From positions 62,001 to 126,000 of IMG/VR virus record IMGVR_UViG_3300023184_000024: a stretch of 64,000 nucleotides of DNA; one strand, given 5' to 3'. The position numbers were made by a program, and so were the translations under genes. This DNA comes from a virus. Under the pieces are notes generated by a model. That model worked only from the letters and a program-made list of their open reading frames with translations, searched no databases and was not told the DNA's origin. This document shows, piece by piece, positions 1-61,759 of this stretch; positions within the stretch are counted from its first letter, which is position 1; every line of letters starts with the position of its first letter.

Positions 1-414
1 TTTGATGCAGTGGCATCAGCACCTGGATTAACTCTAACTGTTACTTTTGATCAAGAAACAGTGTTTGATGGCCCAGTAGATGGCAATGTTGTGCATGTAA
101 AACATCAATTCAATGATGACAGTGACCTCGATCATCTGCTAGAAATTACCATGCAAGGCAAAACCGCCAGAGATACCCAAGTCGACGAGCATGGCAACAT
201 TGTCAGCGATGTTACATTAACTGTTTCAAATATTGCGCTAGACGACATTGTGCTCAGCAGTTCCTTGCTGGCAAACTGCAATTATCATCATAATTTCAAT
301 GGCAGTCAACCTGATATCATTGATGAATTTCATGGTATAATGGGCTGTAATGGCACAGTGAAAATACCATTCAAATCGCCAATCTACATTTGGCTGCTTG
401 AAAACATGGCCTGA
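1..414 (+). CDS. Partial hypothetical protein (5' end outside window)
   Basis: The frame is open from base 1 (FDAVASAPG...) and closes at TGA 412-414, so the true start lies upstream; a GTG at 10 is in frame but has no ribosome site. The visible 137 residues are rich in beta-prone stretches, with a phrase VFDGPV that resembles IVYEGPV in the product at 14347, so the two may share a small beta-sandwich fold (inference). The stop overlaps the start of the radical SAM gene (TGATG), so they are translated together. Function unknown. Confidence 0.6.
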   Translation, partial: FDAVASAPGLTLTVTFDQETVFDGPVDGNVVHVKHQFNDDSDLDHLLEITMQGKTARDTQVDEHGNIVSDVTLTVSNIALDDIVLSSSLLANCNYHHNFNGSQPDIIDEFHGIMGCNGTVKIPFKSPIYIWLLENMA

Positions 415-1394
415 TGACAACAGTTGATCAACTACACGAAATAGTTTTTGAAGCCACAAGTCATTGTAATCTGCATTGTCCACAATGCGAGCGTTATGAT
501 CAAGATGGATACCTTCATCCAAAGTTAACCCCTCAACACATCGATTTTGATCTTGTCAAGCAAAACATCAATGTTGCCCAGCTTGTTGGATTAAAGAATG
601 TAACCTTTGAAGGCAACTACGGCGACATATTGATGCACCCACGTGCTCGAGAGTTGTTTGATTTATTTTCAACAGTGGAACGTGTTGCAGCCACCACCAA
701 CGGAAGTTTACGCAACAAAGCTTGGTGGGCCGACCTAGGGCGCAACAGCAAAGTTGATGTTATGTTCAGCATAGATGGACTTGAAGATACCAACCATGTT
801 TACCGCATCAATTCAAACTGGCAACGCATCATGGAAAATGCAGAAAGTTTTATTTCTGCTGGTGGACAAGCATACTGGAAATTTATAGTATTCAAGCACA
901 ACGAACACCAACTTGATCAAGCAAGAGAACTGAGCAAGACCATGGGCTTCCAAGATTTCCATTGGCAGTACAGTGATCGCAGTTGGTTTCAAGGAAGAGT
1001 TTGGCCTGTCAAAGTTGAAGGGCAGTATCTCTACGACCTAGAACCCGCAAAATCAGTCACTGCCAATACCTCTACTCCAGCTGTGATTACTTTGGACAAG
1101 ATTAAAAAGAAGAATTATACCAATCCTGTGCAGAAGTGTTTTTTGCCACAAGGCAGGCTCTACATCAACAGCAAAGGGCATGTTTTGCCCTGTTGTATGA
1201 CCAGTGGCAAAACCTGGGGGCACGATCTTGAAAGCCGTATGTGGCAACGTTTAATAGGCGACATAAACAGCATTGATCTACATCATCACACACTTGAAGA
1301 TATATTAAACAGTGACTTTTATCAGCATCGTTTGATCAACAGTTTTTCCGGCAGTCCCTACACGCATCCTTCGTGTGTGGCCTATTGCGGATAA
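414..1394 (+). CDS. Radical SAM protein with C-terminal cysteine (SPASM-like) region
   Basis: 326 aa. Cys18-x3-Cys22-x2-Cys25 (CNLHCPQC) is the [4Fe-4S] motif of radical SAM enzymes. A second cysteine group (Cys242, Cys260-Cys261, Cys321, Cys325) in the last 90 residues is arranged like a SPASM/twitch auxiliary cluster domain, which in known families usually acts on peptides or proteins. The ATG overlaps the stop of the preceding gene. It may modify a small phage or host protein; the substrate cannot be read from the sequence. A T4-late-like promoter follows the stop. Fold confidence high, role unknown. Confidence 0.8.
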   Translation: MTTVDQLHEIVFEATSHCNLHCPQCERYDQDGYLHPKLTPQHIDFDLVKQNINVAQLVGLKNVTFEGNYGDILMHPRARELFDLFSTVERVAATTNGSLRNKAWWADLGRNSKVDVMFSIDGLEDTNHVYRINSNWQRIMENAESFISAGGQAYWKFIVFKHNEHQLDQARELSKTMGFQDFHWQYSDRSWFQGRVWPVKVEGQYLYDLEPAKSVTANTSTPAVITLDKIKKKNYTNPVQKCFLPQGRLYINSKGHVLPCCMTSGKTWGHDLESRMWQRLIGDINSIDLHHHTLEDILNSDFYQHRLINSFSGSPYTHPSCVAYCG

Positions 1395-1410: not shown

Positions 1411-2469
1411 ATGAAAAAATTAGTGATTATTCCCGGTGGCTTTCACCCGTTCCATGCAGGACACAAGGCTTTGTATGACAAAGCAGTTGAAGCATTTCCT
1501 TCAGCTGATGTTTATATTGCAGCCACTGATGATCGTAGTGAGCGACCGTTTCCTTTTGCTATCAAGAAAAAACTAGCACAACTGGCCGGTGTGCCACCAC
1601 ATAGATTTATACAAGTCAAGAGTCCGTTTAAACCCGACGAAATTACCAGCCACTATCCTGACAATGATACACAGTTAATATTTGTCAAGAGTCAAAAGAA
1701 TGCCAAAAATGGACCTGATCCTGAAGGACCATTCCCGGCCGAAGTAGATCCCAAAACCGGGCAATTGCCCTTAGTCACTCGCGGTGCTAGAAAAGGGCAA
1801 CCTGTGAGTGATTGGTTGCAGTACTACAAGCGCAATGGCCTTGCCCCAATGAGTCAACACGGTTATTTGAAGTACCTACCTGTGCATGAATTCAATGGCA
1901 TGACATCAGGCAGTGAAATTCGTGCCAAGTGGGCCAACTATGATGATGCTACCAAAGCACAGTTGGTTAACATCATGTACCCAACCACAGTTAATAATCC
2001 GAGACTCACAGACGTCACAGTCAAGCTCATGGACAACGGCATGGGCACCAACAACAAAAAACCAGCAGCCAAGCCAGTTGACGAAGATCAAGGAGCTGGT
2101 CAAGTGTTGGCCAAAAGCATAGCATTGGCTCCAGTGGGTCCAGTAGACACTGAAGTTGACGAAGCCACATTGGTCAACGATCCCGAAGAAGGAATTCAAA
2201 TTCGTCCCAACGGCGGCCTAGGTTCCTGGAATGAAGCCAGTCTTAAAAATAACCTGGTAAAACAATTGGTTGAAATAGTAGAAATGCTCAAGGTTGGTAA
2301 TTACCGTGGCGTTGAGCACTTGTTGTACAAGGGCGGTGCCATGCAGGCCAAAGTGCAGGCTTTGGCACGATTAGAAGACTTTAGTACCAAACAAGGTCGT
2401 CGTCCTATTGCTCAAGGCAAAGAAATAAATATCGGCGAAGATTACGTCGAAGAAGGTAGTTTAAAATGA
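1411..2469 (+). CDS. HxGH nucleotidyltransferase-like protein with C-terminal cargo-type extension
   Basis: 352 aa. Residues 1-20 contain GGFHPFHAGHKAL, the HxGH (His15-His18) nucleotide-binding motif of cytidylyl/adenylyltransferases; TSGSEIR near residue 168 fits the second nucleotide-binding motif. Residues 1 to about 200 are the enzyme domain. The rest is a low-complexity, charged extension with V-D-E251/A252 and a C-terminal YVEE/GSLK, both resembling prohead-protease sites discussed for the neighbouring genes. The gene overlaps the next by 4 bases (ATGA). No Shine-Dalgarno is visible; a late-type promoter sits 7 bases upstream. Substrate (NMN, glycerol phosphate or other) not determinable. 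Confidence 0.75.
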   Translation: MKKLVIIPGGFHPFHAGHKALYDKAVEAFPSADVYIAATDDRSERPFPFAIKKKLAQLAGVPPHRFIQVKSPFKPDEITSHYPDNDTQLIFVKSQKNAKNGPDPEGPFPAEVDPKTGQLPLVTRGARKGQPVSDWLQYYKRNGLAPMSQHGYLKYLPVHEFNGMTSGSEIRAKWANYDDATKAQLVNIMYPTTVNNPRLTDVTVKLMDNGMGTNNKKPAAKPVDEDQGAGQVLAKSIALAPVGPVDTEVDEATLVNDPEEGIQIRPNGGLGSWNEASLKNNLVKQLVEIVEMLKVGNYRGVEHLLYKGGAMQAKVQALARLEDFSTKQGRRPIAQGKEINIGEDYVEEGSLK

Positions 2470-4094
2470 AAGCACGTGAGTTTATTACAGAAGCTGTTGA
2501 GGATAGAACCAGCTATCAAGTTGCCAAAATATTGGCCGACAAAGGCATCAAGTATGACTCTTCTCTTGAGTCCAAGTTAATAAGTGCTATCGGGGCAGTG
2601 ATGGTAAAAGAGTTGGGCATGAATCCAACCACAGTAAGAAACATTATCAGCTACGATGACGATTTCCTTGCTGACACTCTAAGCGAACTACAACACATGA
2701 ATCAAGGTGTGACAGAAGGCTCCAGAAACGCATATTTGAAACACAACAATTTAGTTGACATAGAAAAGCCACTGGCCGGACTAAAAAGTGAGTTTGAGAA
2801 ATTTTTACAAACGCATGACCCTGAAGAAAAACAAAAATATCAACAAGGTATAAAAAAACGAATTAAATCAGAACCAATGTCAGGACCAAAAGGCGTATTA
2901 CCAGAGCAAGGTGAAGGCAACTTTGCAGGTGATGCCCCGGTCAACATCGGCGGAGCAACAGTCAAGCGACTAGGAGTTGGCGACGCAGTAACATACTTTG
3001 GGCAACCGGCAAAGATCCTTGCACAATCAACGGATCGTAAACATTCTCGCATTACAATTACAAAGGGCATGGGCGGCGTTACTCAAAATGTGCTAACAAG
3101 TGATTTAAAACGAGTGGGGCAAGGTGTGGCGGAAGGCTCCTTAAACGAAGGGCAATATGAAATGATGATGCGTAATGGACAAGTGAAGAAGTTCATTGCC
3201 AAAGACGATGCTGATGCCAAGCGTATTGCCGCCGGCCACGGTGCTAAAAGCGTAATCAAGTTAAGAGGTGGTGTTCCTGCTGGTAAAATAGCAGAGCAAG
3301 GTGTGGCGGAAGGCTATGACCCTGTAGAATCAGATTACCAACAGTGGGAAGATATTCTAGTCAAGGACGGCTACAGGATGGCTGACCCTTCCGGTGCTTA
3401 CGCATTAAAACTAGTGGTAGGACATCAGGGTTCAGATTCTGATTGGGTATCTGCCATTAGAAATATTTTGGCCTATGTCAAACAGAATCGTGCTGTGCTT
3501 GGTAAAGCAGTAGCAGACAGAACTACTGTGAAAGATGCTATCATTGATATTAAAAACAAGTTCCCTCAACAGTATCAAGCGGCCCAACAACAGCAAGGTG
3601 TAGCAGAAGGTAAACCAGAAGTTGATTCACTTGTTACCGACACATCAAACATAATGCAAGGTCCAGAATTCAGTGATGCTGAACTAGCAATAAAGACGGT
3701 GCTAGGAGATAGAGCATTTAATGAACGCCGCAGTTATTACAGTTTCTTTATTAACCAACTGGTCGATATGTATGGTAAGCCTGAAGGATCAAAAACAGTA
3801 GATTCACTGGTCACCAACGCACTAGGCGTAATGCGTGGTCCAACAAGAAATGATGCTATAGCCGCATTAAAAACTGCGCTTGGAAATGAAGAATATAAGA
3901 GCCGTAGTACTTTTTATAAGTTATGGGTCAACCAAGCAGTTGACAAGTATAGTAAAAAAGGTGTAACTGAAAGTTCTGTGACCAAGAAGCCGCAGCCTTA
4001 CAACGAGCCAAACTGGGCTAAAAATTTGCCCAAAGATAAGTTGGATGCCATAGCTGGCCCACGCTACAAAAAAGATAAAAAACAAAAAAGCTAG
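2466..4094 (+). CDS. Modular capsid-cargo-like protein with GVAEG junctions
   Basis: 542 aa, function unknown. The N-terminus MKAREFITE/A resembles the capsid-targeting peptide of T4 internal proteins (MKTYQEFIAE/A), cut after Glu by the prohead protease. Further sites of the form (V)xE/(G or S) lie at Glu84 (GVTEG), Glu223, Glu282 and Glu381 (all GVAEG) and Glu502 (GVTES), dividing the chain into modules of about 60 to 140 residues. Residues about 385-440 and 445-500 are a tandem duplication beginning VDSLVT and containing similar (F/W)(I/V)NQ(L/A)VD motifs. I infer an internal protein processed into several peptides within the prohead. No catalytic motif seen. Overlaps the upstream gene by 4 bases. 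Confidence 0.7.
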   Translation: MKAREFITEAVEDRTSYQVAKILADKGIKYDSSLESKLISAIGAVMVKELGMNPTTVRNIISYDDDFLADTLSELQHMNQGVTEGSRNAYLKHNNLVDIEKPLAGLKSEFEKFLQTHDPEEKQKYQQGIKKRIKSEPMSGPKGVLPEQGEGNFAGDAPVNIGGATVKRLGVGDAVTYFGQPAKILAQSTDRKHSRITITKGMGGVTQNVLTSDLKRVGQGVAEGSLNEGQYEMMMRNGQVKKFIAKDDADAKRIAAGHGAKSVIKLRGGVPAGKIAEQGVAEGYDPVESDYQQWEDILVKDGYRMADPSGAYALKLVVGHQGSDSDWVSAIRNILAYVKQNRAVLGKAVADRTTVKDAIIDIKNKFPQQYQAAQQQQGVAEGKPEVDSLVTDTSNIMQGPEFSDAELAIKTVLGDRAFNERRSYYSFFINQLVDMYGKPEGSKTVDSLVTNALGVMRGPTRNDAIAALKTALGNEEYKSRSTFYKLWVNQAVDKYSKKGVTESSVTKKPQPYNEPNWAKNLPKDKLDAIAGPRYKKDKKQKS

Positions 4095-4121
4095 AAATTT
4101 TTTGACGCTGTATTCTTCTAT

Positions 4122-4127
4122 TAAATA
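4122..4127 (+). promoter_or_regulatory. T4-late-like promoter TAAATA
   Basis: TTAAATATAC lies 29-34 bases upstream of the ATG at 4156. A TTGACG at 4102-4107 is too close (13 bases) to act as a standard -35, so the late-type reading is preferred. Confidence 0.4.
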
Positions 4128-4155
4128 TACACACATATTTTATTAAAGAGGTAAT

Positions 4156-5019
4156 ATGGCTGAACAACAAATCCAAGTAAACGTAGACTATCTCCGTACC
4201 ACTCGCGTACATATTTGTATGCCGTGTTATGGCGGTATGTTAACAGAATCAACATTCATGAGTTATATTAAATGGGCCAATACATGCCGACAACTGGGCA
4301 TTGATTGGACCATGGAAACAATGACCAATGAAAGTTTGATTTCCCGAGCTAGAAACACATTAGTTGCTAAATTTTTAAACAACCCAACATCAACACACCT
4401 TATGTTTATTGATGCAGACATTGGCTGGGAACCATGGCACTTGTTAGTGTTATTGAATCGCCAAGTTGATGTGATTGGGGGATTATACCCAATGAAAACC
4501 TTGCCAATTAAATGGGTGGTAAATGGGTTTGACGGGGCCGAAGAAGGTGAAGATGGCTTGCAAGAAGTCAGCAAAACTGGCACTGGATTTATGCTGGTCA
4601 AGCGTGATGTATTTGAAAAACTCAATGCACACCCTGCTGTAAAATCATTTGCCAACGACATTGGTCTGCCCAAAGAGTTGGATCAACACTTGAAAACCTA
4701 TTACGACACTGCTGTGCGTGAAAACCGTTACTACAGCGAAGACTGGACTTTCTGTGAAAACTGGCGTGACATCGGTGGTAAAGTTTGGGTCGACAAACGT
4801 GTGTTACTCAAGCACAGCGGTAGTTATGTGTTTGATTTTGCCGCACAAGAACCTTTATACCGGTCATTGCACGATATAGCAATGCAGACACAGGCAGCAA
4901 ATAATGCGCTTGAGCAATCAGCTGAAACAGTGTTGGTTACTCCCACAGTGTTGGACACTAACGAGCCGGAAGCAGAGCCAGTAACTGATAAAAAACAAAA
5001 GTCTGGTAAAAAAGCATAA
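4156..5019 (+). CDS. GT-A fold glycosyltransferase-like protein
   Basis: 287 aa. The opening (HICMPCYGGM) and the FIDADIG motif near residue 88, a DxD-type metal/nucleotide-sugar site, fit family 2-like glycosyltransferases. GTGFMLVKRDVF and the later EDWTFCENWR resemble acceptor-side motifs of this fold. The last 50 residues are a charged tail ending in lysines. A proper ribosome site (AAAGAGGTAAT) precedes the ATG. Phage glycosyltransferases modify hydroxylated DNA bases, virion proteins or host surface sugars; which one applies here cannot be decided. Confidence 0.7.
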   Translation: MAEQQIQVNVDYLRTTRVHICMPCYGGMLTESTFMSYIKWANTCRQLGIDWTMETMTNESLISRARNTLVAKFLNNPTSTHLMFIDADIGWEPWHLLVLLNRQVDVIGGLYPMKTLPIKWVVNGFDGAEEGEDGLQEVSKTGTGFMLVKRDVFEKLNAHPAVKSFANDIGLPKELDQHLKTYYDTAVRENRYYSEDWTFCENWRDIGGKVWVDKRVLLKHSGSYVFDFAAQEPLYRSLHDIAMQTQAANNALEQSAETVLVTPTVLDTNEPEAEPVTDKKQKSGKKA

Positions 5020-5022
5020 CGG

Positions 5023-5028
5023 TAAATA
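5023..5028 (+). promoter_or_regulatory. T4-late-like promoter TAAATA (short leader)
   Basis: GGTAAATACAG ends 8 bases before the ATG at 5037. If used as a late promoter the transcript would start only a few bases before the start codon. No Shine-Dalgarno is visible. Confidence 0.45.
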
Positions 5029-5036
5029 CAGTTCGT

Positions 5037-8000
5037 ATGGACATCAACGAACTGGAAACGTACCGTTTATCGGACGCAATTAAATTTAACAGCAATCTTA
5101 ACCCCCGTTTGTGGGGTGAAGATGAACAGCTTAGACCTGAGGTGCGAGAGCACCTTTTGTCTATTGCTGATGATTTTCGAGAATCTCTTGGCGTCAACGA
5201 TCTCAACGTCAAAGACATTACCATCAGCGGAAGTAATGCCGCTTATACATATACCCCGCACAGCGACATAGACCTGCATCTTGTAGTAGACTTGGACAAT
5301 GTCTGCAACAACGAAGTCTACCGAGAGTTGTTTGATGCTAAAAAATATCAATACAACAACGAACACAACTACAAAATACATGGCTATGATGTTGAACTGT
5401 ATGTTCAAGACAGCAAACAACCACACCATAGTTCCGGCATTTACTCAATAGTCAACAACGATTGGATCAAAGTACCTAGCCGTAGAAAACCCACCATTGA
5501 TGATATCAGCGTCAAAGGCAAGTATGTGGATCTAGGCAACCGCATCGAAGCTGCCCTGGCCAGTGGGGATATTGAATTAATCAAAACCCTGTGGCAAAAA
5601 TTAAAGACCATGCGGCAAGCTGGATTGGATAAAACTGGAGAGTTTGGTCCTGAGAATCTAGCATTTAAATTGCTACGCAGAGCTGGTATAATTGAAAAAT
5701 TAAAAACTGCCATCACACAGGCCAAAGATCAAGAACTCAGCTTAACTGAACGTAAGAAAAAGAAAAAAAGAGTGCGCTACGGCTACGGTGGTCATTTTTA
5801 TCCTGGGTATTCATTCAATGATAACTCTGCCGACGGTGGCGAAGGCGGCGGTGAAAGTGTAATGGAAAACAAAGACGTCAAAGACATACTACAACCATTT
5901 ATTGACAGTTGCGTAGAATATCTTGGCATCGAAAACCGCCCAAAAATTATATTAAAACGTGATCCGGAGTGGACACGCAGAAACGGCACGTTTGGACGGT
6001 TTGATCATGACACACATTCAGTGACGTTGGCTGTAACCGGTCGGCACACACTGGACATTCTTCGCACGTTGGCACATGAACTCACTCATGCCAAGCAAGA
6101 TGAATTGGCAGCATTGCCTGTGGATGCAGGTCAAACAGGATCTCCCTACGAAGATGAAGCAAATGCCATGGCTGGTCGAATCATGCGACATTGGGTCGAC
6201 CAGCATCCTGAATTCTTCAAAGACGTACCAGTTGAAGAATCTGTTAAAAGTAAATTAGCGGCAGCCGGGGCGGCAGTGTGCATAGCTGGAACACCAGGAT
6301 GTGCTACCACCACTGGCGATGCTATCCGTGGTGTGCAGGCAGCAGGAACAGCGGCGCAGACCATCAAGCACATGGGCCGAGCCGGTGCCGAAGAAGAGGT
6401 AATGCAACGACTTAAAAATGAACTGCGTCGACATCGTGGGCAAAATGTGCCCGAAGAAGTCACTGACGAGGATTACGATCCCAACGGCAAGCCACCTGGT
6501 CCTGAGTTCAAGCCTACTATGCCAGCAGGCACAGTCAAAGTAGATGTTAGTGATGTTTACGATTGGTATAAGCTGGGACAACACATCAGTGATCTAGAAG
6601 GATTGGGCCAGCATGATTTTGGCAGTGGACCCCCTAGTACCATCATGGCATTTGGCAGTGAAAAAGAAGAACACAAATACATTGACGCACTAAAGAAAAC
6701 AGGACTGACAACAACTGATATTGATCCGGTTGATGTGAATCAACCCAAGGGTATGCCGCGCCAGAAAGTTGATCCTACCTATAACGTGGATGAAGATAAA
6801 CAAAGTATAGACGAAGCTCAGATTAGCAAAAACATTCAACCAATTCTTGTAAAAAAAGGCTATGCATTTTTGGGCAAAGGTCAGGACCAAGATGCCTATC
6901 TAGCACCCGACGGAACTGTTCTCAAAATATTTGGTTACGGTCCAGGCGGTAAGTTATCCCAAGGACAACAAAGTTTCAAAGACTTTGCCGATTACTGCAT
7001 GGCAAAGCCAAACAATCCATTTTTGCCACAGTTTGGCGGCTGGGAACCTTTTGACTTTGAAGGTAAACGATATCTGCAGATCAACTGTGAAAGAATGTTT
7101 GATCTTAGCAAGTCTGGGTTGATCCTGGTTGGTTCCAGACTAGGGCAATTGGCAAGTTTGATACAGTCCAATGGTGCAGACCGTGGAGTTAATAAATTCC
7201 TAAGACGCCACGGAGATAAAGAAACAGGAAAACTAATGTCATTGGTTGGTGGGCGGCAACAATTTCTGTTGTTGGCCAACACCATTGAGCAACTGGATAA
7301 GCTTGCTGACCGAAAGGGATACAGACTTGATTTGCATGGCGGTAACTTTATGCTTGGCAGTGATGGCGAGATAGTCATTAATGATCCATTTTTTACTGGT
7401 AATTGGCGATTTGATGAATCTATAAATGAATCATTGGACCAACCCTATAAAATACTTCGATGGGAAAAGGGTGACTACGGTGATGTAGACGCAATAGCAC
7501 GATTAGATGACGGAACTTTTCTAAGCATTATGTTCAACAAGGGATTTAGTCAAGATACAAAAGAGGAAGCATGGAGTGTTGAGTTTTATAGAAACAACAG
7601 TCAAGAAAAGACAGGTGAGGGTGATCAACAGCGTGTGTTTGCCACTGTGTTAAGTGCTGTTCAAACATTTGTTTCTGACAGGGTGCCTGGCGCCAAGGGA
7701 AAATACAAACCCAATAAAGTATACTTTTCGGCCTCAAAAGAAGTTAAACCAGATGAGGATCAAAGGAAAGCAATGACCAGGGCAAGACTGTATGACAGTT
7801 TGGTTCAGCGTTATGCACGAGCATTAGGCTTTAGAGCGTTCCGTGCTGACACCGGCAACAAAGTAATGTACGAATTGAGTAGAATAAAACCAATAGCGGA
7901 AGATATTGCAGATGAAAGTGTACTTGGATTTTTAACAAGTCCTAATACTCCTGGTGAAAAAAAATCTAAGATAAGTTCTGCAGAAATGCGAAAGTATTTT

Positions 8001-8300
8001 GAAAAAGAAAAATCCAAAGAGCCGGCAAAATATAATAACGATAACAAACAAAAGCCTCAATATGTGTATACTAGATCAAATGAAGAGAAACAAGAGGTAG
8101 TCGAGTCCACAGGCTATATTCCTGTTAATGATCAAGAAGCACGTGATCCAAGATACAGCATGGCTATCACACAAGATATCAAACCCGGGGAAGTTCAGCG
8201 TCAGGCAGCTAAAATGGGCTTTAAAACTGATGCTGCCGGTGTGCCACCGTTGTTGATGGCCAAACTACAAAATCAACTAAAAGAGATCAAAGCAAAATGA
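5037..8300 (+). CDS. Giant multidomain protein: nucleotidyltransferase, HELTH metallopeptidase, kinase-like fold
   Basis: 1087 aa. Residues about 40-120: Pol-beta-type nucleotidyltransferase core (GS at 65-66, then SDIDLHL, S76-D77-I78-D79). About 270-400: zinc-peptidase-like domain with H347-E-L-T-H351. About 594-795: protein-kinase-like or aminoglycoside-phosphotransferase-like fold with K630 in VLKIF, catalytic-loop-like D765-L-H-G-G-N770 and metal-binding-like D783. About 799-950: a further module of unknown function. Junctions have (I/V/L)xE followed by small residues: V399-E-E401/S, I591-D-E593/A directly before the kinase-like domain, I796-N-E798/S directly after it. These match the T4 prohead-protease preference, so I infer a polyprotein matured in the capsid and possibly delivered into the host. 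Overlaps the next gene by 4 bases. Confidence 0.7.
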   Translation: MDINELETYRLSDAIKFNSNLNPRLWGEDEQLRPEVREHLLSIADDFRESLGVNDLNVKDITISGSNAAYTYTPHSDIDLHLVVDLDNVCNNEVYRELFDAKKYQYNNEHNYKIHGYDVELYVQDSKQPHHSSGIYSIVNNDWIKVPSRRKPTIDDISVKGKYVDLGNRIEAALASGDIELIKTLWQKLKTMRQAGLDKTGEFGPENLAFKLLRRAGIIEKLKTAITQAKDQELSLTERKKKKKRVRYGYGGHFYPGYSFNDNSADGGEGGGESVMENKDVKDILQPFIDSCVEYLGIENRPKIILKRDPEWTRRNGTFGRFDHDTHSVTLAVTGRHTLDILRTLAHELTHAKQDELAALPVDAGQTGSPYEDEANAMAGRIMRHWVDQHPEFFKDVPVEESVKSKLAAAGAAVCIAGTPGCATTTGDAIRGVQAAGTAAQTIKHMGRAGAEEEVMQRLKNELRRHRGQNVPEEVTDEDYDPNGKPPGPEFKPTMPAGTVKVDVSDVYDWYKLGQHISDLEGLGQHDFGSGPPSTIMAFGSEKEEHKYIDALKKTGLTTTDIDPVDVNQPKGMPRQKVDPTYNVDEDKQSIDEAQISKNIQPILVKKGYAFLGKGQDQDAYLAPDGTVLKIFGYGPGGKLSQGQQSFKDFADYCMAKPNNPFLPQFGGWEPFDFEGKRYLQINCERMFDLSKSGLILVGSRLGQLASLIQSNGADRGVNKFLRRHGDKETGKLMSLVGGRQQFLLLANTIEQLDKLADRKGYRLDLHGGNFMLGSDGEIVINDPFFTGNWRFDESINESLDQPYKILRWEKGDYGDVDAIARLDDGTFLSIMFNKGFSQDTKEEAWSVEFYRNNSQEKTGEGDQQRVFATVLSAVQTFVSDRVPGAKGKYKPNKVYFSASKEVKPDEDQRKAMTRARLYDSLVQRYARALGFRAFRADTGNKVMYELSRIKPIAEDIADESVLGFLTSPNTPGEKKSKISSAEMRKYFEKEKSKEPAKYNNDNKQKPQYVYTRSNEEKQEVVESTGYIPVNDQEARDPRYSMAITQDIKPGEVQRQAAKMGFKTDAAGVPPLLMAKLQNQLKEIKAK

Positions 8301-9790
8301 AAATTAAAGATCTAATATTAAAAGAAACAACTTTGGGTGGATTTCCAGTCAAGGTATTGAACATCCAAGATCAAGGTGTTGAAGAAGCTGGCAATGCCAA
8401 TAGTGGACGTCGTGGGCCAATGTCACCGCCAGACAATGCTCCGGTTACACCCGGACGAGTAGAAAAAACTGCCACAGGTATAAAACATCATGCTGACCCA
8501 AGTCGGTATGGTGGTCACAGTCCCAAACCTGAAGATGATCGTTTATTGGGCACACAACAAAGATGGAGATTGGATCGTGCTGTTCGTGGTGTGGCCGAAG
8601 GCACAGAAAAACGCTGTCTGCAATGTGGTATGAAGAACTGTAAATGCCCCGGAGACAGTTGCAAGTGCAAACCCGTTGCAGGATGGATTCCTGGTAAAGG
8701 TTTCAAGAAAGCCATAGAAGAAGCAATCAAGCTCAATGCACCACAGAAGTCATGGTCCAAGCAAGACATGCAGGATTACCTGACTCGCATTAAAACAGGT
8801 ACAAAAACCAAACAAGATAGATTCAAGCCTATTATTCACGGCAGCAATGTCAAAGCAATCACAAAAGACGATGGTACAGAAGAATGGGACCTGGAAGATC
8901 TAAAGCGTCAAATCACCACACCACCTAGAGCAATCCTTGGATCAAATGCCAAGATGAGCAAGAGTAAAAAAGAAGGTGCCATCACATACGACTTGACACT
9001 ACCAGCACTAAGCGGTATTGTTGTTGATGAAGACACTGGAGAGTTTGTAGAAATCACCACATGCCCAGGTGCCGGCGAATGTCAACTGTTCTGTTATGCT
9101 AGAAAAGGCGGCTATGTCATGTTCCCTGCCGCATCAATGAGTGCCGCACAAGCATTGAACTTCTTGGTCAATCACCCTGATGAATACATGGCAATGTTTG
9201 ACAGCGAAATCAAAAAAACAAAAGCACTGGCAGACAAAAATGGTATCAAGTTGTTGGTGCGTATTCATGATGCTGGCGACTTTTTCTCTAAAGAATACTG
9301 GGACCTAAGCAAGAAAGTGCAACTTAACAATCCAGATGTACGTTTTTACTTTTACAGCAAAATGGGAGAGCCAGTAACTGATCCAAATACGCCGTCTAAT
9401 ACATTGCCCAACTTCAGCGATGGTGGTGCCAAGAGTCGTGAAGTTAAGAAAGTTGAACTTTACAGAAATGCTGGCAAGAACTTAAAAGGTGCACCAACTA
9501 TTCCCAAAGACATGTTCCGCGAGTTGTTTGTTACTGATGCCAAAGGCAAATACGTCAAGGATGAACAAGGTCGCACACAGGTTAAAAGCCCAGAAGCATG
9601 GGAAAACTTTAAACAGAAGTTATCTACAAAATACAACATTGACCCTGGGTCAATTATCACATACGACCAAATGAATCGTATTCCCGAAGGACCCAAACCC
9701 AAATGGAACGTAGTTGTGTTCCCTGCAGGTCATGGTGACTTGGGTGCAACCCGACTTGATGTACAAAATCAATTTTTAATGTTCCACTGA
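8297..9790 (+). CDS. gp88-like protein with cysteine-rich N-terminal segment
   Basis: 497 aa. The region from about residue 195 to the end, with CPGAGECQLFCYARKGGY near residues 255-272 and RIHDAGDFFSKEYW near 320, resembles the phage gp88 family, whose function is not established. Residues 108-127 hold a tight cysteine cluster (CLQCGMKNCKC, then CKC) that looks like a zinc knuckle. Cleavage-like junctions occur at V28-E-E30/A31 and V99-A-E101/G102, placing the cysteine module and the gp88 domain as separate pieces. N-terminus MKIKDLILKE is a looser version of the targeting peptide in neighbouring genes. Starts inside the stop of the preceding gene. Confidence 0.65.
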   Translation: MKIKDLILKETTLGGFPVKVLNIQDQGVEEAGNANSGRRGPMSPPDNAPVTPGRVEKTATGIKHHADPSRYGGHSPKPEDDRLLGTQQRWRLDRAVRGVAEGTEKRCLQCGMKNCKCPGDSCKCKPVAGWIPGKGFKKAIEEAIKLNAPQKSWSKQDMQDYLTRIKTGTKTKQDRFKPIIHGSNVKAITKDDGTEEWDLEDLKRQITTPPRAILGSNAKMSKSKKEGAITYDLTLPALSGIVVDEDTGEFVEITTCPGAGECQLFCYARKGGYVMFPAASMSAAQALNFLVNHPDEYMAMFDSEIKKTKALADKNGIKLLVRIHDAGDFFSKEYWDLSKKVQLNNPDVRFYFYSKMGEPVTDPNTPSNTLPNFSDGGAKSREVKKVELYRNAGKNLKGAPTIPKDMFRELFVTDAKGKYVKDEQGRTQVKSPEAWENFKQKLSTKYNIDPGSIITYDQMNRIPEGPKPKWNVVVFPAGHGDLGATRLDVQNQFLMFH

Positions 9791-9791
9791 A

Positions 9792-10853
9792 ATGCGATCA
9801 CAAGAATTCATACGTGAGTACAAAGAAAAATTCAACCAGGCTGTGATGCAGCCGGGGTTCAAGTTCAGCCAGGAAATCAACGGTGTTGTTTATAAAGTAA
9901 TTAATAAAATAGGCATGCCCGAAATGCTGGCACTAGACAAACAAGGTCAAGTAATCGGCGCCGCAACATTTTGGAAACACCCTACTCAAACCGGATTAGA
10001 AAGCCTGAGCACACACGTAGACCAAGCATGGCAAGGCAAGGGCATTGCCGCAAACATGTATGCTGTGATGCGCATGCTGGGAGTAAACATATCGCCATCG
10101 TCTAATAGAACTAACATGGGCAAGGCCATGTGGGCCAAATGGAGCCGACAAGGTGATGCTAAACATCTAAAGAATTTAAATCCACGAACCAAAGAGCAAG
10201 ATCTAGCAGAAGGCCTGTCACATCCAGTTATCTGTGTTGATGTACAGCCAGAATACAACGGAGGACCATGGCCGCCTGCCAATCCAAAGTTTGTTCAAAT
10301 AATGAATTTTGTACAAAAACAAACTGGCCCTGTGCTGTTCTTTGTCAATGCCGAAGATCAAGGCTTGAGTGGAGATTCCGTTCAACAAATACAACAATTC
10401 TGGGACGAAACCTTGGGCACAGAAGGTGAAGAAGGTGAGGACGAGAATGGTGATTACTATTACAACGAGCCGGAGAGCCCGATTGACTGGCGCCGCTTTG
10501 AAATAGTAGACAAGGGCTACGGATACTTGCGTTCATGGATGGATCACGGAATTGAACCAAGTACCATCGTTGCAACCATACGTGAAATGTACGCACAACA
10601 AGTCTCAGACACTAGAGACCTAGAGTTCCCTGCCTTTAATCGTCGTACTACTACACAAAGTTTAATTCAAGGTGCCATAGAAGAAATGCAAGATGATCCA
10701 ATGACTGTGGGCTGGGCCAGTGTTGGTCAACTAAAGCGTTTTAACGGTGCCTACTTGGTTGGTGGTGGCAGAGAAGAATGCCTGCGTGAAGTAGAATTAT
10801 TAATGAATGCGTTTAATATTAAATATAAACGTATAGATAGCTTGGTGTATTAA
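9792..10853 (+). CDS. GNAT-like acetyltransferase module fused to an unknown module
   Basis: 353 aa. N-terminus MRSQEFIRE is of the capsid-targeting type. Residues about 50-125 look like a GNAT N-acetyltransferase (LSTHVDQAWQGKGIAANMYAVM, with the Q/R-x-x-G-x-A-like acetyl-CoA loop QGKGIA). L138-A-E140/G141 is a good match to the T4 prohead-protease consensus and separates this from a second module (about 141-353, beginning HPVICVDVQPEYNGG) of unknown function. The same GNAT pattern recurs in the gene at 11336. It starts 2 bases after the previous stop and abuts the next gene, so it belongs to the same operon. Confidence 0.65.
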   Translation: MRSQEFIREYKEKFNQAVMQPGFKFSQEINGVVYKVINKIGMPEMLALDKQGQVIGAATFWKHPTQTGLESLSTHVDQAWQGKGIAANMYAVMRMLGVNISPSSNRTNMGKAMWAKWSRQGDAKHLKNLNPRTKEQDLAEGLSHPVICVDVQPEYNGGPWPPANPKFVQIMNFVQKQTGPVLFFVNAEDQGLSGDSVQQIQQFWDETLGTEGEEGEDENGDYYYNEPESPIDWRRFEIVDKGYGYLRSWMDHGIEPSTIVATIREMYAQQVSDTRDLEFPAFNRRTTTQSLIQGAIEEMQDDPMTVGWASVGQLKRFNGAYLVGGGREECLREVELLMNAFNIKYKRIDSLVY

Positions 10854-11339
10854 ATGAGAGCACAAGAGTTTATCACCGAAGGCAAGTTAAGTGTAGATGT
10901 GCCCAACGAAGCGTGGTTACAAGACAAGATTGACTATGCCAAAAGCAAAGGTCGTAACAGTTACGGTGTTCCATATATGGGTAGTACTACTGCTTCTGTT
11001 CAAGGAACTCCACCTAGAGTGCGTGTAATGAGATTAGCATCATTGCCGGGTATGCGCCATGAACAAACCAATGTGCGTCAAGATGACCTAAAGTGGTTGA
11101 TGGACTACATGGAACGCACAGGCAAGTTGCCACCCATGGGCAGTAACCCCGACCAAGAATACTTGCCCTACATCATGGTGGCATACAACGGTGAAGCATG
11201 GGTCAACGAAGGCAATCATCGTATCATGGCCGCTTATAGATTAAACTGGCAGGACATGCCCATTGAAATACGCTACTTTGATGGCGGCGAAAGAATTGCA
11301 ACAGGGCCAATGGCACCAGGCAAGATTGGACTAGCATGA
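10854..11339 (+). CDS. Capsid-cargo-like protein with ParB-like motif
   Basis: 161 aa. N-terminus MRAQEFITE/G fits the I-x-E/G protease site. The C-terminal half contains NEGNHRIMAAYRL, resembling the GxxR/NHRxxAA substrate loop of ParB/sulfiredoxin-like domains. Such domains can bind or cut DNA or use nucleotide triphosphates; activity here is not predictable. No ribosome site beyond coupling: the ATG follows the previous stop directly (TAA ATG). I infer an injected protein. Confidence 0.55.
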   Translation: MRAQEFITEGKLSVDVPNEAWLQDKIDYAKSKGRNSYGVPYMGSTTASVQGTPPRVRVMRLASLPGMRHEQTNVRQDDLKWLMDYMERTGKLPPMGSNPDQEYLPYIMVAYNGEAWVNEGNHRIMAAYRLNWQDMPIEIRYFDGGERIATGPMAPGKIGLA

Positions 11340-11914
11340 GAGCCCAAGAGTTTGTTACTGAAACAATAAATCCAGATATTCTCAACAAGAGATTCCGGCA
11401 CAAACAAGTAATTGGTGATTACACTTACACAGCGTCAGTTGAGATGTTTATAGGTGAGCCGTTGTTGAACATCAAGGTTTATAATGGTGACACCGAAATA
11501 GGGCATGCCATGTTTGAAGTATTTCACTGGGAAGACCAACCATCTAAAAGCCACATAGAAAGCGGTGGCACCGAAGTTGATCCAAAATACAGAAACAAAG
11601 GTGTTGCTTCTACAATGTATGCCTATGCAAAAATGTTGGGCAATGATATTAGAGCCAGTTCTAATAGAACACCTCAAGGTAAGGCAATGTGGGCAGCCTG
11701 GGAAAAGTCGGGCGATGCGCAACACATAACTAGACCAGTTGAAGAAAACTTTGCAGATGGCAAAAAGCCTGGACGCAAAGGACTAGCCAAACGCTCAGGT
11801 GTTGACTGTAAACAAAGCGTGACCAAACTGCGTAACATTGCTGCCAACAGTTCTGGCGAACGACAAAGAATGGCACACTGGTGCGCCAACATGAAATCAG
11901 GCAAGAAAAAATGA
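11336..11914 (+). CDS. GNAT-like acetyltransferase with basic C-terminal module
   Basis: 192 aa. MRAQEFVTE start of the capsid-targeting type. Residues about 80-120 (EVDPKYRNKGVASTMYAYA) carry the RNKGVA acetyl-CoA loop of GNAT enzymes and are followed by IRASSNRTPQGKAMWAAW, closely matching ISPSSNRTNMGKAMWAKW in the 9792 product, so the two are paralogs. The last 50 residues are very basic and Cys-containing (KKPGRKGLAKR ... MKSGKKK), a separate small domain that could bind nucleic acid. Overlaps both neighbours by 4 bases. Confidence 0.65.
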   Translation: MRAQEFVTETINPDILNKRFRHKQVIGDYTYTASVEMFIGEPLLNIKVYNGDTEIGHAMFEVFHWEDQPSKSHIESGGTEVDPKYRNKGVASTMYAYAKMLGNDIRASSNRTPQGKAMWAAWEKSGDAQHITRPVEENFADGKKPGRKGLAKRSGVDCKQSVTKLRNIAANSSGERQRMAHWCANMKSGKKK

Positions 11915-12108
11915 AAGCACAAGAGTTTATAACCAGGCCCAAACTCAAAGTTTATGCGGTAAAGATAAAACTACCACAGGGCGGATATAATAACATTGTT
12001 GACACAACTGTGATGGCAAAAAACCCTGAAATGGCTCGTCGTATTTTGCGTACCCAATATAATAATGCCAACATAATTGTGGGCCAGCCCAAAGAAATCA
12101 AACAATAA
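11911..12108 (+). CDS. Small protein with degenerate capsid-targeting N-terminus
   Basis: 65 aa. Start chosen at ATG 11911, overlapping the previous stop (ATGA), because MKAQEFITR matches the N-termini of its neighbours. Here Arg replaces the Glu after which the protease would cut, so it may stay uncleaved. The rest (VYAVKIKLPQGG..., AKNPEMARRILRTQY) resembles small phage proteins of unknown function. Confidence 0.6.
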   Translation: MKAQEFITRPKLKVYAVKIKLPQGGYNNIVDTTVMAKNPEMARRILRTQYNNANIIVGQPKEIKQ

Positions 12109-12116
12109 ATTCACGC

Positions 12117-12122
12117 TAAATA
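12117..12122 (+). promoter_or_regulatory. T4-late-like promoter TAAATA (leaderless context)
   Basis: GCTAAATACTGC ends 4 bases before the GTG start at 12127, so a transcript begun in the usual late position would start at or within the start codon. Confidence 0.45.
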
Positions 12123-12126
12123 CTGC

Positions 12127-12432
12127 GTGGATAATATATTTGTACAAGCTTGTTTTGACCTGCACTGTGAGTGGAAGGAAACTCCCCCATCGTATCGTGT
12201 TTTTGTAAACAACGAATTGTTTACAGAGCGAACGTATGTATGGACTGACTACTACTTAACAGAAATGTTGCAAATTGAAGCTCCTGCAGGACATTATCAA
12301 ATAACAATAGTTCCAATGGGGCCCGAAGCCGATACATTGATTGTCAACAATTGGGACATAGAATACGGAACTGCTCGATGGCTTACAAAAGAGTCTGAGT
12401 CATTTAAAAACACCTTGGAAATACACCCATGA
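12127..12432 (+). CDS. Hypothetical beta-rich protein, GTG start
   Basis: 101 aa (GTG start). Begins DNIFVQACFDLHCEWKETPP and continues with a regular alternation of hydrophobic and polar residues, suggesting a small beta-sandwich. Aromatic-rich (YVWTDYYLTEML). Similar short beta proteins occur near structural genes of T4-like phages, but no function is assigned. The gene overlaps the next by 4 bases. No ribosome site is visible. Confidence 0.55.
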   Translation: MDNIFVQACFDLHCEWKETPPSYRVFVNNELFTERTYVWTDYYLTEMLQIEAPAGHYQITIVPMGPEADTLIVNNWDIEYGTARWLTKESESFKNTLEIHP

Positions 12433-12599
12433 GATGGCGAGAAATAATGGAAAATATCAGCTCAGGGACCACTGGGGCCGGGTCAATTTCTGTGGTCAGC
12501 AATCCCATTGGGAAAGTAATTACCAGAACAGAGAATAAAAAAATAGGTAAATATTCTAATAGTCCAAACCCAACACCGTACAGTAAGAAAAAGGAATAA
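12429..12599 (+). CDS. Small basic protein MRWREIMENIS...
   Basis: 56 aa: ATG 12429, stop TAA 12597-12599. Overlaps the stop of the preceding gene. N-terminus MRWREIMEN is shaped like the capsid-targeting peptides upstream (x-R/K-x-x-E-I/F-x-E), followed by a Ser/Thr/Gly stretch (ISSGTTGAGSIS) and a basic tail. I infer another small internal protein; no domain recognised. Confidence 0.5.
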   Translation: MRWREIMENISSGTTGAGSISVVSNPIGKVITRTENKKIGKYSNSPNPTPYSKKKE

Positions 12600-12601
12600 G
12601 A

Positions 12602-13042
12602 ATGCTTGCCGAAGATTTAAAAACGTTATTAGCTACCCAATATGCATTGAGCATCAAAGCTCAGAATTTTCACTGGAATGTTGAAGGTCCGGACTTTGCT
12701 GAATACCATGACTTCTTTGCCAACTTCTACGAAGAAGTGTACGGCGCTGTTGATCGCATTGCCGAATATATTCGCACATTGGACGAGTACAGCCCCGGCA
12801 GTTTTGAACGTTTTCAAGAATTGTCAGCTATCCAGGGACAAATAAAAATTCCACGTGCCAGATTAATGATAGAAGAATTACTAAGTGATAACCAGACCAT
12901 GACTGATTTGTTAAACCAATGCTTTTCATCGGCCACGCAAGAAAACAATCAAGGTATTGCCAATTTCATAGCTGAACGGCTAGATGCACACGGCAAACAT
13001 GGCTGGATGTTGAGAAGTTTCCTCAAGGATAACCGGGCATGA
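12602..13042 (+). CDS. Dps-like mini-ferritin
   Basis: 146 aa. The four ferroxidase ligands of Dps are present at the right spacing: H24 (HW motif), H36, D51 and E55 (12, 15 and 19 residues apart as in bacterial Dps). Dps proteins oxidise and store iron as a 12-mer cage, protect DNA from peroxide and may bind DNA. Length is a little below the usual 155-165, without a lysine-rich DNA-binding tail. AAGGA precedes the ATG. It sits at the end of the cargo block. A role in limiting Fenton damage in infected cells is inferred. Confidence 0.85.
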   Translation: MLAEDLKTLLATQYALSIKAQNFHWNVEGPDFAEYHDFFANFYEEVYGAVDRIAEYIRTLDEYSPGSFERFQELSAIQGQIKIPRARLMIEELLSDNQTMTDLLNQCFSSATQENNQGIANFIAERLDAHGKHGWMLRSFLKDNRA

Positions 13043-15028: not shown

Positions 15029-15493
15029 ATGAATATCTGCCAGGTTCCATATCGAGCTCTCACCATAGACTTCGACGGTAATTGTTTTATTTGTCATCAT
15101 GCCAAATGGCTGCCCATGCCGGTTGGAAGAATCGAAAATATCACCGATTTACGCAATGTTTGGTCAAGCCCAATTGCACGTATGCTCCAACAAGACATCG
15201 AATTAAACCGATTCACTTGGTGTGCTACCAAACATTGTGGCATATTAAAACAACATCAGCAACTCGACCACTATCAAATCACAGTGATGTTAGATGGTTT
15301 AGCAGAGGATTCAGAATTAAATTGCACCATTGATCGGTTAAACAAACTGTTCTATCTACTTGACCAATTTACAGAATCGTGTATAATTAAAATCATAGGA
15401 ACAACATCAACTTTGGATTCTACAATTGTATCGTTGATCAACACTTATACTCCAACCAACCCCAAGCAAATTTTAAATATTCAATTAACCTAA
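15029..15493 (+). CDS. Stand-alone SPASM-like cysteine protein
   Basis: 154 aa. The first 65 residues (ALTIDFDGNCFICHHAKW ... VGRIENITDLRNVWSSP ... CATKHCGILK) match the layout of the SPASM auxiliary iron-sulfur region of peptide-modifying radical SAM enzymes (DGxxxxC, GNI-x-D-like, cysteines spaced later), but no radical SAM core precedes it. It could partner another radical SAM protein such as the one at 414, or be a decayed remnant. No clear ribosome site upstream. Confidence 0.5.
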   Translation: MNICQVPYRALTIDFDGNCFICHHAKWLPMPVGRIENITDLRNVWSSPIARMLQQDIELNRFTWCATKHCGILKQHQQLDHYQITVMLDGLAEDSELNCTIDRLNKLFYLLDQFTESCIIKIIGTTSTLDSTIVSLINTYTPTNPKQILNIQLT

Positions 15494-58385: not shown

Positions 58386-58462
58386 GGGCCGTTAGCTCAT
58401 TAGGTTAGAGCAGTGGACTCATAATCCATTGGTGGAGTGTTCGAATCACTCACGGCCCACCA
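58386..58462 (+). tRNA. tRNA with CAT anticodon (elongator Met or Ile2)
   Basis: 77 bases, encoded CCA. Acceptor GGGCCGT/ACGGCCC is fully paired, so not an initiator. Anticodon CAT at 58420-58422 in loop CTCATAA. If position 34 is modified to lysidine it would read ATA (Ile). Confidence 0.93.
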
Positions 58463-58481
58463 AATATATTGAAAGACTAAA

Positions 58482-58730
58482 ATGAAAACAACAGATAAAA
58501 AAATCAAAGTTGAATTTGCACCAGGTGCGTTTGATGATTTCGAAGGCACACAAGAAGAGCTGGATCAACTGCAAGAAGAACTGTTGACATTGTTTTCTGA
58601 GTTGACTCCTGAAGAATTGTCGTTGAGAAGTATGCCAGTTGATCTTGATGCGTTGAGTGCCGAAGATCCTGATGTTGCTGAAAAGATTGCAAACTTTTTA
58701 GGCGATGATGCTACACGAGTACTGCAATAA
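58482..58730 (+). CDS. Small acidic hypothetical protein
   Basis: 82 aa, acidic (FDDFEGTQEELDQLQEELLTLFSELTPEEL). Ends on the start of the next gene. Downstream of the tRNA. Unknown. Confidence 0.65.
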   Translation: MKTTDKKIKVEFAPGAFDDFEGTQEELDQLQEELLTLFSELTPEELSLRSMPVDLDALSAEDPDVAEKIANFLGDDATRVLQ

Positions 58731-59290
58731 TGGCCAAGATTGCTAAAAGTCCTGACCGACATACCTTTCAAAAAGAAGGTTATATTAAACGCATGAAAGA
58801 ACAGGGCAAAGAGCCAAATCCCGACTACGTTGAAATGTATAAAACTTGGCGTGTGCAGGATGAGGCTAACGTAGTAGATCCTGCTTGGCAAAAAGACAAC
58901 ATGGAGTACGACTTGCGTGTTGCAACTTGGATCTGCGACAAAGCCAAGGCCAGCGAGGCATACGCTCAAAACTTGTATGCGGCCATGTGCAACAGAGACT
59001 TCATGAAAAACGACGTTATGCCAATACTCAAAGATCAGCGTTGGAGTGCCAGTTGGCGTCATGCAGGAGGCATTGTTGCTGACATGCGGGAAGAAGGTGA
59101 CTATATTGATTGGTACTGCTCGGGCATTGGCGGTACGATGGCTGGCGGCAATGAGTCTGATCCTGCAATAGAAGAGGCCATACTGGCTAGAAAAAATTAC
59201 GTGCCAGAGGGCACCATCACTGACGAGATACGAGAAGATTTATTCCGACTGGGTTGGATTGTGTTGGAAGAAGACGACAACGACCAGTGA
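58730..59290 (+). CDS. Hypothetical protein
   Basis: 186 aa. Helical with Trp and Cys (ATWICDKAKASEAYAQNLYAAMCNRDFMKNDVMP), then SASWRHAGGIVADMREEGDYIDWYCSG, a phrase repeated in many small T4-like phage proteins of unknown role. Starts on the previous stop. Confidence 0.7.
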   Translation: MAKIAKSPDRHTFQKEGYIKRMKEQGKEPNPDYVEMYKTWRVQDEANVVDPAWQKDNMEYDLRVATWICDKAKASEAYAQNLYAAMCNRDFMKNDVMPILKDQRWSASWRHAGGIVADMREEGDYIDWYCSGIGGTMAGGNESDPAIEEAILARKNYVPEGTITDEIREDLFRLGWIVLEEDDNDQ

Positions 59291-59499
59291 CGCAGGTAAC
59301 ACTTTTACATATCAATGTTGACAAGGTATTTCAAATAGTTGGCACCTTGAAATCACAGGGCTATCAACTTGGCATTGATTTTGATTTTGCTTACTATCAA
59401 AGCCGATGGGACGAAATGATCGGGGAAATCCCTAGATCAACAATCTTTACTTTTTATTCTGACAGCGTGGCGCTATGGTTTAGTTTAAAGTACCGTTGA
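59287..59499 (+). CDS. Small hypothetical protein, GTG start
   Basis: 70 aa, GTG 59287 overlapping the preceding stop (GTGA). VTLLHINVDKVFQIVGTLKSQGYQLGIDFDFAYYQ is alpha/beta. An upstream in-frame ATG at 59254 would lie inside the prior gene. Unknown. Confidence 0.5.
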   Translation: MTQVTLLHINVDKVFQIVGTLKSQGYQLGIDFDFAYYQSRWDEMIGEIPRSTIFTFYSDSVALWFSLKYR

Positions 59500-59507
59500 T
59501 TGACGTG

Positions 59508-59513
59508 TAAATA
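59508..59513 (+). promoter_or_regulatory. T4-late-like promoter TAAATA, short leader
   Basis: GTGTAAATACTTTG is followed by ATG 6 bases later at 59520, again leaving almost no leader. Confidence 0.5.
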
Positions 59514-59519
59514 CTTTGA

Positions 59520-61274: not shown

Positions 61275-61298
61275 TGTTGTTTTTTGACAACATACTGG

Positions 61299-61327
61299 TT
61301 GACAAGGTATAAATAAACACATATAAT
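61299..61327 (+). promoter_or_regulatory. Consensus promoter TTGACA-17-TATAAT for the leader peptide
   Basis: Perfect -35 TTGACA 61299-61304 and -10 TATAAT 61322-61327, spacer 17. Predicted start about 61334, 4 bases before ATG 61338. Confidence 0.8.
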
Positions 61328-61337
61328 AGAGACTATA

Positions 61338-61448
61338 ATGAACTCCGCTCATTTAAACGCACTGTCAGGACAGCAGAAAACTACAAGTTATTTGTGGTCA
61401 CCTGTCTGCCCACGTACAATTGATAATGAGATACCGGGTTCTGAGTAG
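61338..61448 (+). CDS. Putative 36-aa leader peptide
   Basis: ATG 61338, TAG 61446-61448: starts MNSAHLNALSGQQ, contains YLWSPVCPRT, ends PGSE. It is translated nearly leaderless. Its last 4 codons are the 5' arm of a hairpin that competes with the terminator downstream, so its translation could control that terminator. No known peptide family recognised. Confidence 0.5.
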   Translation: MNSAHLNALSGQQKTTSYLWSPVCPRTIDNEIPGSE

Positions 61449-61513: not shown

Positions 61514-61521
61514 AGGACAAC

Positions 61522-61689: not shown

Positions 61690-61699
61690 TATCAAAGTG

Positions 61700-61729: not shown

Positions 61730-61759
61730 CAAAACAAGCACAAACGGGCGGTAACGAGG

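Follow-up and report, generated by a model that had tools for sequence, protein, structure and literature searches.

The window analyzed here, a stretch of 64,000 nucleotides covering bases 62001-126000 of the 352,754-bp IMG/VR record IMGVR_UViG_3300023184_000024, belongs to a giant (jumbo) T4-like phage and carries an island of genes that is probably devoted to head cargo. Several products begin with M[KR]xxEF[IV]xE, which we read as a capsid-targeting sequence (CTS) of the T4 type. Furthermore, ORF 2466-4094 and its relatives are, judged from their sequence, polyproteins whose modules are joined by GV(A/T)E↓G/S linkers (the arrow marks the predicted cut). We propose that the CTS brings each precursor into the prohead core and that a gp21-like protease of family S77 cuts it after the Glu. 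The same protease would cut the polyproteins at GV(A/T)E↓G/S or at other [ILV]xE↓[GASN] sites, freeing each module inside the head. The modules appear to be acetyltransferase-, ParB-, gp88-, nucleotidyltransferase-, metallopeptidase- and kinase-like, together with short basic beads. Once mature, they would stay with the DNA and, by analogy with T4, might be carried into the host at infection and act there in early takeover or against its defences.

The initial annotation had proposed a run of T4-like N-terminal peptides between 2466 and 12599. All six N-termini that it named were recovered (2466, 9792, 10854, 11336, 11911 and 12429), and the motif is far more frequent than expected by chance. 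M[KR]xxEF[IV] opens 4 of the 93 non-overlapping window genes of at least 50 aa; when residues 2-20 were shuffled 20,000 times, the mean count was 0.005 and the highest 2. A fifth such start, that of 11911, falls outside this gene set because its longest ORF begins upstream, at 11881. Over the whole record, the pattern ATG-9N-GAR-TTY-RTN has nine matches on the + strand, eight of them reading M[KR][AS]xEF[IV], and the reversed pattern has one match in total. Overlooked by the initial annotation were 8297 (MKIKDLILKE) and, beyond the window, CTS genes at record positions 54208, 263121 and 263489. The island CTS genes have the N-terminal peptide of the MKTYQEFIAE type, 10-20 residues long and ending in [IL]xE; 11911 does not. 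The start of 12429 is degenerate in the window (MRWREIME↓N), and its orthologs in the same position are canonical (MRAREFVRE↓N, MRAHEFLKE↓N, MRAREFIRE↓D, MRANEFIRE↓D).

In related phages these N-termini are conserved on otherwise unrelated proteins, an outcome in favor of the initial annotation. M[KR]AxEF[IV]xE[AG] was found in at least 120 IMG/VR stretches, and in 5 when the final Glu was replaced by Lys, so the P1 Glu is specific to the motif. Among the IMG/VR loci that were readable, 78 distinct CTS proteins have unrelated downstream sequences. As a positive control, the T4 form of the pattern recovered two MKTYQEFIAEA products and T4 61.1.

A gp21-like protease and capsid genes elsewhere in the genome, which the initial annotation had suggested searching for, are both present. 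The record encodes a Peptidase_S77 protein of the T4 gp21 family (positions 224562-225188; PF03420, E 4.5e-27), which aligned with T4 gp21. The head genes follow the same order as in T4: portal, acidic protein, protease, scaffold and gp23-type capsid protein, the last being 62-66% identical to those of the jumbo phages PA5oct/MIJ3, CBB, BF and Phosso. The propeptide of T4 gp23 has 65 residues (PMC5694885), and in the alignment its cleavage position is occupied by LxE in our phage and its relatives (YLKE↓N, FLVE↓N, MLRE↓S, PLME↓T). Hence, the expected cut follows a hydrophobic-x-Glu and precedes a small or polar residue. When a CTS set was chosen without selection on P1', Glu stood at P1 in 50 of 58 cases; P1' was broad (N, A, S, G, T and others), with A/G/S/N/T in 30 of 50. 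The CTS set and the GV[AT]E↓G/S linkers share the profile of an S77 substrate (P1 Glu, hydrophobic P3, small P1'), and MRAQEFITEGKLS and KQGVAEGSLNE are candidate substrate peptides.

The more striking feature, also overlooked by the initial annotation, is the polyprotein build with internal linkers that resemble cut sites, together with the exchange of modules between CTS and linkers and the conservation of the linker DNA. There are five GV(A/T)E↓(G/S) linkers in ORF 2466-4094 and one in ORF 8297-9790. The module between linkers 2 and 3 of ORF 2466 recurs at 84-98% identity in polyproteins of other contigs, where both flanks differ. In a non-redundant set of 261 proteins with a CTS or a linker, 121 of 598 homology breaks at left ends fell at linkers (29 on average under the null, at most 48), as did 121 of 500 at right ends (30 on average, at most 49). 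GVAE and VAEG each occur 35 times in 1,400 proteins from loci picked by CTS alone; next among the permutations of these letters comes EGVA, itself overlapping EGVAEG, with 11 occurrences. Module insertions and deletions gave five raw events (four distinct), too few for statistics.

Several modules were found in both contexts, behind a CTS and inside a longer protein. The module that follows the CTS of ORF 2466 (MKAREFITE↓AVEDRTSYQVAK) comes after NQGVAE↓AVEDRTSYQVAK in locus L194, and MRAQEFITE↓GKLSVDVPN in the window corresponds to KKGVAE↓GKLSVDVPN in L028. The reverse was also observed: the internal QDLAE↓GLSHPVI of 9792 and SINE↓SLDQPYK of 5037 match MRASELLSE↓GLNHPVI (L020) and MRSQEFITE↓SLDHPYK (L216), which stand behind a CTS. 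In either context the swapped modules are joined exactly after the Glu. Among 60 internal sites matched to a CTS junction, which are not fully independent when they fall inside one module family, [ILVM]xE lies within two residues in 39 (5.4 expected, maximum 13 in 3000 draws), and it is kept at 31 of the 46 such sites that lack GVxE (4.2 expected). The CTS and the internal linker are thus equivalent junctions. The retention of [ILVM]xE and the joining of modules directly after the CTS Glu are our main evidence for reading the linkers as protease sites and not as recombination seams only.

The DNA of the linkers tells a second story. Over 214 linker contexts, retrieved with patterns that left these third codon positions free, Gly is encoded by GGT in 91% (background 44%), Val by GTG in 81% (22%) and Ala by GCG in 77% (6%). 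An identical 18-mer, CAAGGTGTGGCGGAAGGC, is present in 50 of 109 distinct QGVAEG-type contexts, while the six linkers of the window phage differ in codon use. CTS codons vary (Ala GCA/GCT/GCC/GCG 115/38/28/12; Ile ATA/ATT/ATC 57/52/44). Since synonymous positions are conserved in the linkers and not in the CTS, the linkers are probably recombination seams as well, and their DNA conservation likely reflects either a double role or recombination at the linker that has spread it recently. The first option leads to a tentative proposal, which we hold with less confidence than the cargo reading itself. The GVAEG linker could be at once an 18-bp DNA seam moving modules between phages and a prohead-protease site freeing them in the head, such that any module placed behind a CTS or a linker would become deliverable cargo. 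The same data could be taken to mean that the CTS is real and the GVAEG linkers are never cut, being seams at the DNA level within multidomain proteins that work whole. Phage N4 and plasmids have some polyvalent proteins that do travel unprocessed (PMC5512222), and the codon bias and shared 18-mer of the linkers, set against the free variation of CTS codons, count in favor of this explanation. Yet the retention of [ILVM]xE in exactly the right place at junctions without GVxE would not be expected from DNA seams alone, nor would the occurrence of the same modules directly after the Glu of a CTS, and we regard this explanation as unlikely.

Evidence from virions comes from the T4-like cyanophage S-CREM2, whose proteome was obtained by mass spectrometry (PMC10665884, Table 3). 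Two proteins detected there are homologous to proteins of the window phage: gp156 to the nucleotidyltransferase domain of ORF 5037 (36.7% identity, E 3e-40) and gp137 to the CTS protein at record 54208 (73% over 96 aa). For these homologs presence in the virion is reported, and cleavage is not. Several virion enzymes have CTS-like starts, namely a SAM hydrolase (MKDFDSFLEE), a kinase (VKRFDAFLTE) and a cytidylyltransferase (MKNFSSFLTEA), as does gp136 (MQTFSMFFSED). A strict CTS pattern, written like its looser form after other cyanophage N-termini had been seen, matches 4 of 219 S-CREM2 proteins, all four in the virion list (Fisher P 0.0029; P 2e-4 against the non-structural virion set). The virion list also includes gp12 (L249:7704-10313), annotated as Cas9-like, which has a CTS-like RFASFMAEA internally near its N terminus; its annotated start is possibly too early.

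The small protein at 12429 offers another view of the cleavage site. In its family a CTS is followed by a tail similar to the N-terminal arm that the major capsid protein of the same phage has when mature. The members are the window copy (12429-12599), L212:15007, L213:17556, L214:14124 and T4 61.1 (L245). The tail of the L213 member reads E↓NANAGTTSAGSMAT and the capsid protein of the window phage E↓NASAGSTVSGNIAT. Behind its CTS, T4 61.1 aligns over 29 residues with T4 gp23, starting from the Glu at which gp23 is known to be cleaved, with a score of 70 where the best of 2000 shuffles reached 49; the window copy alone matches the capsid arm more weakly (P 0.02). The alignment at the cleavage Glu supports the CTS Glu as the residue after which the cut is made. 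These proteins are possibly mimics or decoys of the capsid arm.

Several observations weigh against packaging and cleavage of the island products. The product of 11911 has Arg at P1 (MKAQEFITR↓P), 9792 has Tyr at P1' (MRSQEFIRE↓Y), and ORF 5037 has no CTS. The presence of S77 in 7 of the 8 CTS contigs that reach 110 kb (smaller fragments lack it) speaks for the cargo reading, though the figure has no baseline from other large viral contigs beside it. The CTS pattern had no match in MIJ3, CBB, Phosso and Vibrio 2.275.O, the phages with the most similar capsid proteins, so the reading cannot be tested on the virion proteomes published for that group. The virion proteomics used here is that of S-CREM2; none exists for the window phage or a close relative. 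For S-CREM2 as a whole, the looser CTS pattern does not reach significance (P 0.22; 0.046 for non-structural virion proteins), and the S-CREM2 authors warn that enzymes may have co-purified with virions (PMC10665884). Moreover, the conservation of the linker DNA may mean that linkers are kept for reasons other than cleavage. The head-cargo reading of the initial annotation is strengthened by the protease, the specificity for P1 Glu and the two homologs reported in S-CREM2 virions, and weakened at 11911, which has no cleavage Glu; the step to host delivery follows T4 by analogy.

Two further explanations were weighed. The proteins could be components of the prohead core or scaffold that are cut up and lost in maturation, like T4 gp22, gp67 and gp68, instead of delivered effectors. 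Core proteins typically have several cut sites each (PMC5694885) and some modules are short and basic, but most resemble folded enzyme-like domains, relatives reportedly persist in mature virions of S-CREM2, and the gene content changes fast between related phages, unlike that of core genes; we consider this reading improbable. That the shared N terminus is some other signal (membrane or nucleoid targeting, translation regulation, a chaperone handle) on ordinary early proteins is very hard to sustain: it could draw on the lack of direct packaging data for the window phage, but must contend with the near match to the CTS of T4 internal proteins, the P1 Glu specificity, the co-occurrence with S77, the relatives listed in the S-CREM2 virion table and the synonymous variation within the CTS, which argues for a peptide signal.

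Head cargo remains our preferred reading of the island, whose parts are listed in Table 1. In relatives L212-L215 the island sits between a ClpB-like ATPase region and the Dps-like gene; L216 and L222 have it too, in sequences that do not include the Dps end. Its content there comprises the cytidylyltransferase-like gene, the nucleotidyltransferase/metallopeptidase protein, the gp88-domain protein and CTS genes whose set changes.

Table 1. Genes, linkers and junctions of the island (window coordinates)
Feature	Position	Strand	Support
Cytidylyltransferase/NMNAT-like protein, island head, without CTS	1411..2469	+	TIGR00125 E 4.8e-4, PHROG 395 E 0.0027 (both below curated cut-offs)
CTS polyprotein, 542 aa: MKAREFITE↓A, then modules parted by five GVxE linkers	2466..4094	+	
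Linker 1 of ORF 2466, GVTE↓G	2706..2720	+	
Linker 2 of ORF 2466, QGVAE↓G (GGTGTGGCGGAAGG)	3123..3137	+	
Linker 3 of ORF 2466, QGVAE↓G	3300..3314	+	
Linker 4 of ORF 2466, QGVAE↓G	3597..3611	+	
Linker 5 of ORF 2466, GVTE↓S	3960..3974	+	
Multidomain protein without CTS	5037..8300	+	Pfam/PHROG
Internal junction INE↓SLDQPYK in ORF 5037	7422..7433	+	Module homologous to CTS-borne copy in L216; copy also in L028
gp88-domain protein, CTS-like start MKIKDLILKE↓T	8297..9790	+	PF17338 E 1.4e-25
GVAE↓G linker inside ORF 8297	8588..8602	+	
CTS MRSQEFIRE↓Y, GNAT-like module, LAE↓G junction, second module, 353 aa	9792..10853	+	
Internal junction LAE↓GLSHPVI in 9792	10203..10214	+	Module behind CTS in L020
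CTS MRAQEFITE↓G and ParB-like module, 161 aa	10854..11339	+	
CTS MRAQEFVTE↓T, GNAT-like module, VEE↓N junction, basic module NFADGKKPGRK, 192 aa	11336..11914	+	Acetyltransf_1 E 8.7e-4
Internal junction VEE↓N in 11336	11738..11749	+	
CTS-like start MKAQEFITR↓P, 65 aa, no P1 Glu, weakest member	11911..12108	+	
56-aa protein MRWREIME↓NISSGTTGAGS	12429..12599	+	
Dps-like protein without CTS, island boundary marker	12602..13042	+	PHROG 3636 E 3.9e-29; PDB Dps E 1.9e-24

The domains claimed by the initial annotation fared unequally: the GNAT and gp88-like ones were confirmed, and the ParB-like one is weak (PHROG E 0.0026). The GNAT call on 11336 is itself weak in the window and rises above the cut-off in the relative L103 (E 3.3e-6). 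ORF 5037 has a nucleotidyltransferase domain (aa 1-236), a HExxH metallopeptidase-like one (AHELTH) and, at aa 580-790, one similar to the T7 0.7 kinase (E 3e-6), for which PDB sequences gave nothing meaningful. After the kinase-like domain come the INE↓S junction and a possible acetyltransferase-like module. An AlphaFold model of this SLDQPYK module (pLDDT 82) gave Foldseek matches with E of at least 3.5e-3 and TM of at most 0.4 and did not establish an acetyltransferase; several of the best matches are acetyltransferases, and a GNAT-like fold is a possibility. ORF 5037 and its relatives combine at least two disparate catalytic or binding domains per polypeptide and are mosaic among themselves. 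For the second module of 9792, a hint of isochorismatase/nicotinamidase (VDVQ...GGGREECL) was not upheld, the AlphaFold model from three sequences being weak (pLDDT 65) and Foldseek returning no such match. ORF 2466 matched no annotated phage record, and the S-CREM2 virion cytidylyltransferase, listed as gp154, is not a BLAST homolog of 1411..2469 at E 1e-3. The ortholog of 8297 in L212 begins MRAHDFILKE. The ParB-like module of 10854 comes after an internal GVAE↓G in L028 and L103, and the basic module of 11336 stands behind a CTS (FVNE↓N) in L028 and behind SVAE↓N in L018.

Some other observations concern CTS proteins and beads outside the island. The products of record 263121 and 263489 (L014:8121-8492 and 8489-8878) are a CTS pair of ~125 aa each, without a Pfam match, encoded upstream of the large terminase gene; many IMG/VR CTS matches are proteins similar to them. 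The CTS proteins at L091:10035 and L080:909, starting HYTS/HYTN..., are possibly ADP-ribosyltransferase-like, as T4 Alt is, and had no Pfam match. Cyanophage bead-on-string proteins adjoin terminase genes (L154 3117-5114, L155 2758-4857, L156 3428-5425). Their modules are short and basic and contain Cys (GFSQRAHCxGRKK, VWPSAYASGALVKCRK, DUF6321), and the same modules turn up again in polyproteins of the window phage's group. Elsewhere, nine tRNA genes cluster at window 58386-63417, and CxxxCxxC-like motifs suggestive of radical-SAM enzymes occur at window 414-1394 and 15029-15493 and at L003:63-1049 and L003:1458-2951.

How does the island compare with known systems? CTS-directed cargo is established in T4 (PMC3012670, PMC9391042). 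The T4 internal proteins IPI-III and Alt share with our set the short N-terminal MK/MR..EF[IV]xE peptide, an S77 (gp21) protease in the genome, and otherwise unrelated, variable cargo of small proteins with enzyme or inhibitor domains. The CTS of the window phage is one residue shorter (MRAxEFI vs MKTYQEFI), and its cargo, whose packaging would follow the T4 model, includes polyproteins with repeated linkers that look like cut sites. Polyvalent proteins (Iyer et al. 2017, PMC5512222), a published idea, also form mosaic combinations of nucleotidyltransferase, kinase, GNAT, ParB-like and metallopeptidase domains and are thought to be injected; the published model for them is self-processing by the metallopeptidase, whereas S77-type sites lie between the modules of our phage, which exchange freely with CTS genes of a single module. 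S-CREM2 resembles our phage in the two virion homologs and in several enzymes starting MKxFxxFLxE; it differs in its FLxE variant of the CTS and its fewer polyproteins, and the accessible text of PMC10665884 makes no mention of a CTS. In SPN3US and phiKZ, head proteins are also cut after Glu by an S77-related protease at several sites per protein, but the propeptides are mostly long (many >100 residues), the motif is AxE/SxE and the ejection proteins are not swappable beads. In the literature searched we found no CTS-tagged polyprotein family with S77-type, CTS-interchangeable and DNA-conserved linkers, and no paper joining GVAEG with phage virions; polyprotein, prohead protease and ejection proteins together surfaced only SPN3US papers, in which the word "polyprotein" does not appear. 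CTS-tagged polyproteins with S77-type linkers would thus be, as far as that literature goes, a new form of the already known CTS cargo or polyvalent injected proteins.

If our reading is correct, jumbo T4-like phages would have a readable address code for head cargo, made of the CTS and the cut-site linkers, and injected proteins could be predicted from sequence alone in hundreds of uncultured phages. How polyproteins packaged in a head are divided could be tested concretely on this set, and the synonymous conservation of the linkers raises a testable question on module shuffling. Finally, such an arrangement would be a natural design for the delivery of several proteins into bacteria at once.

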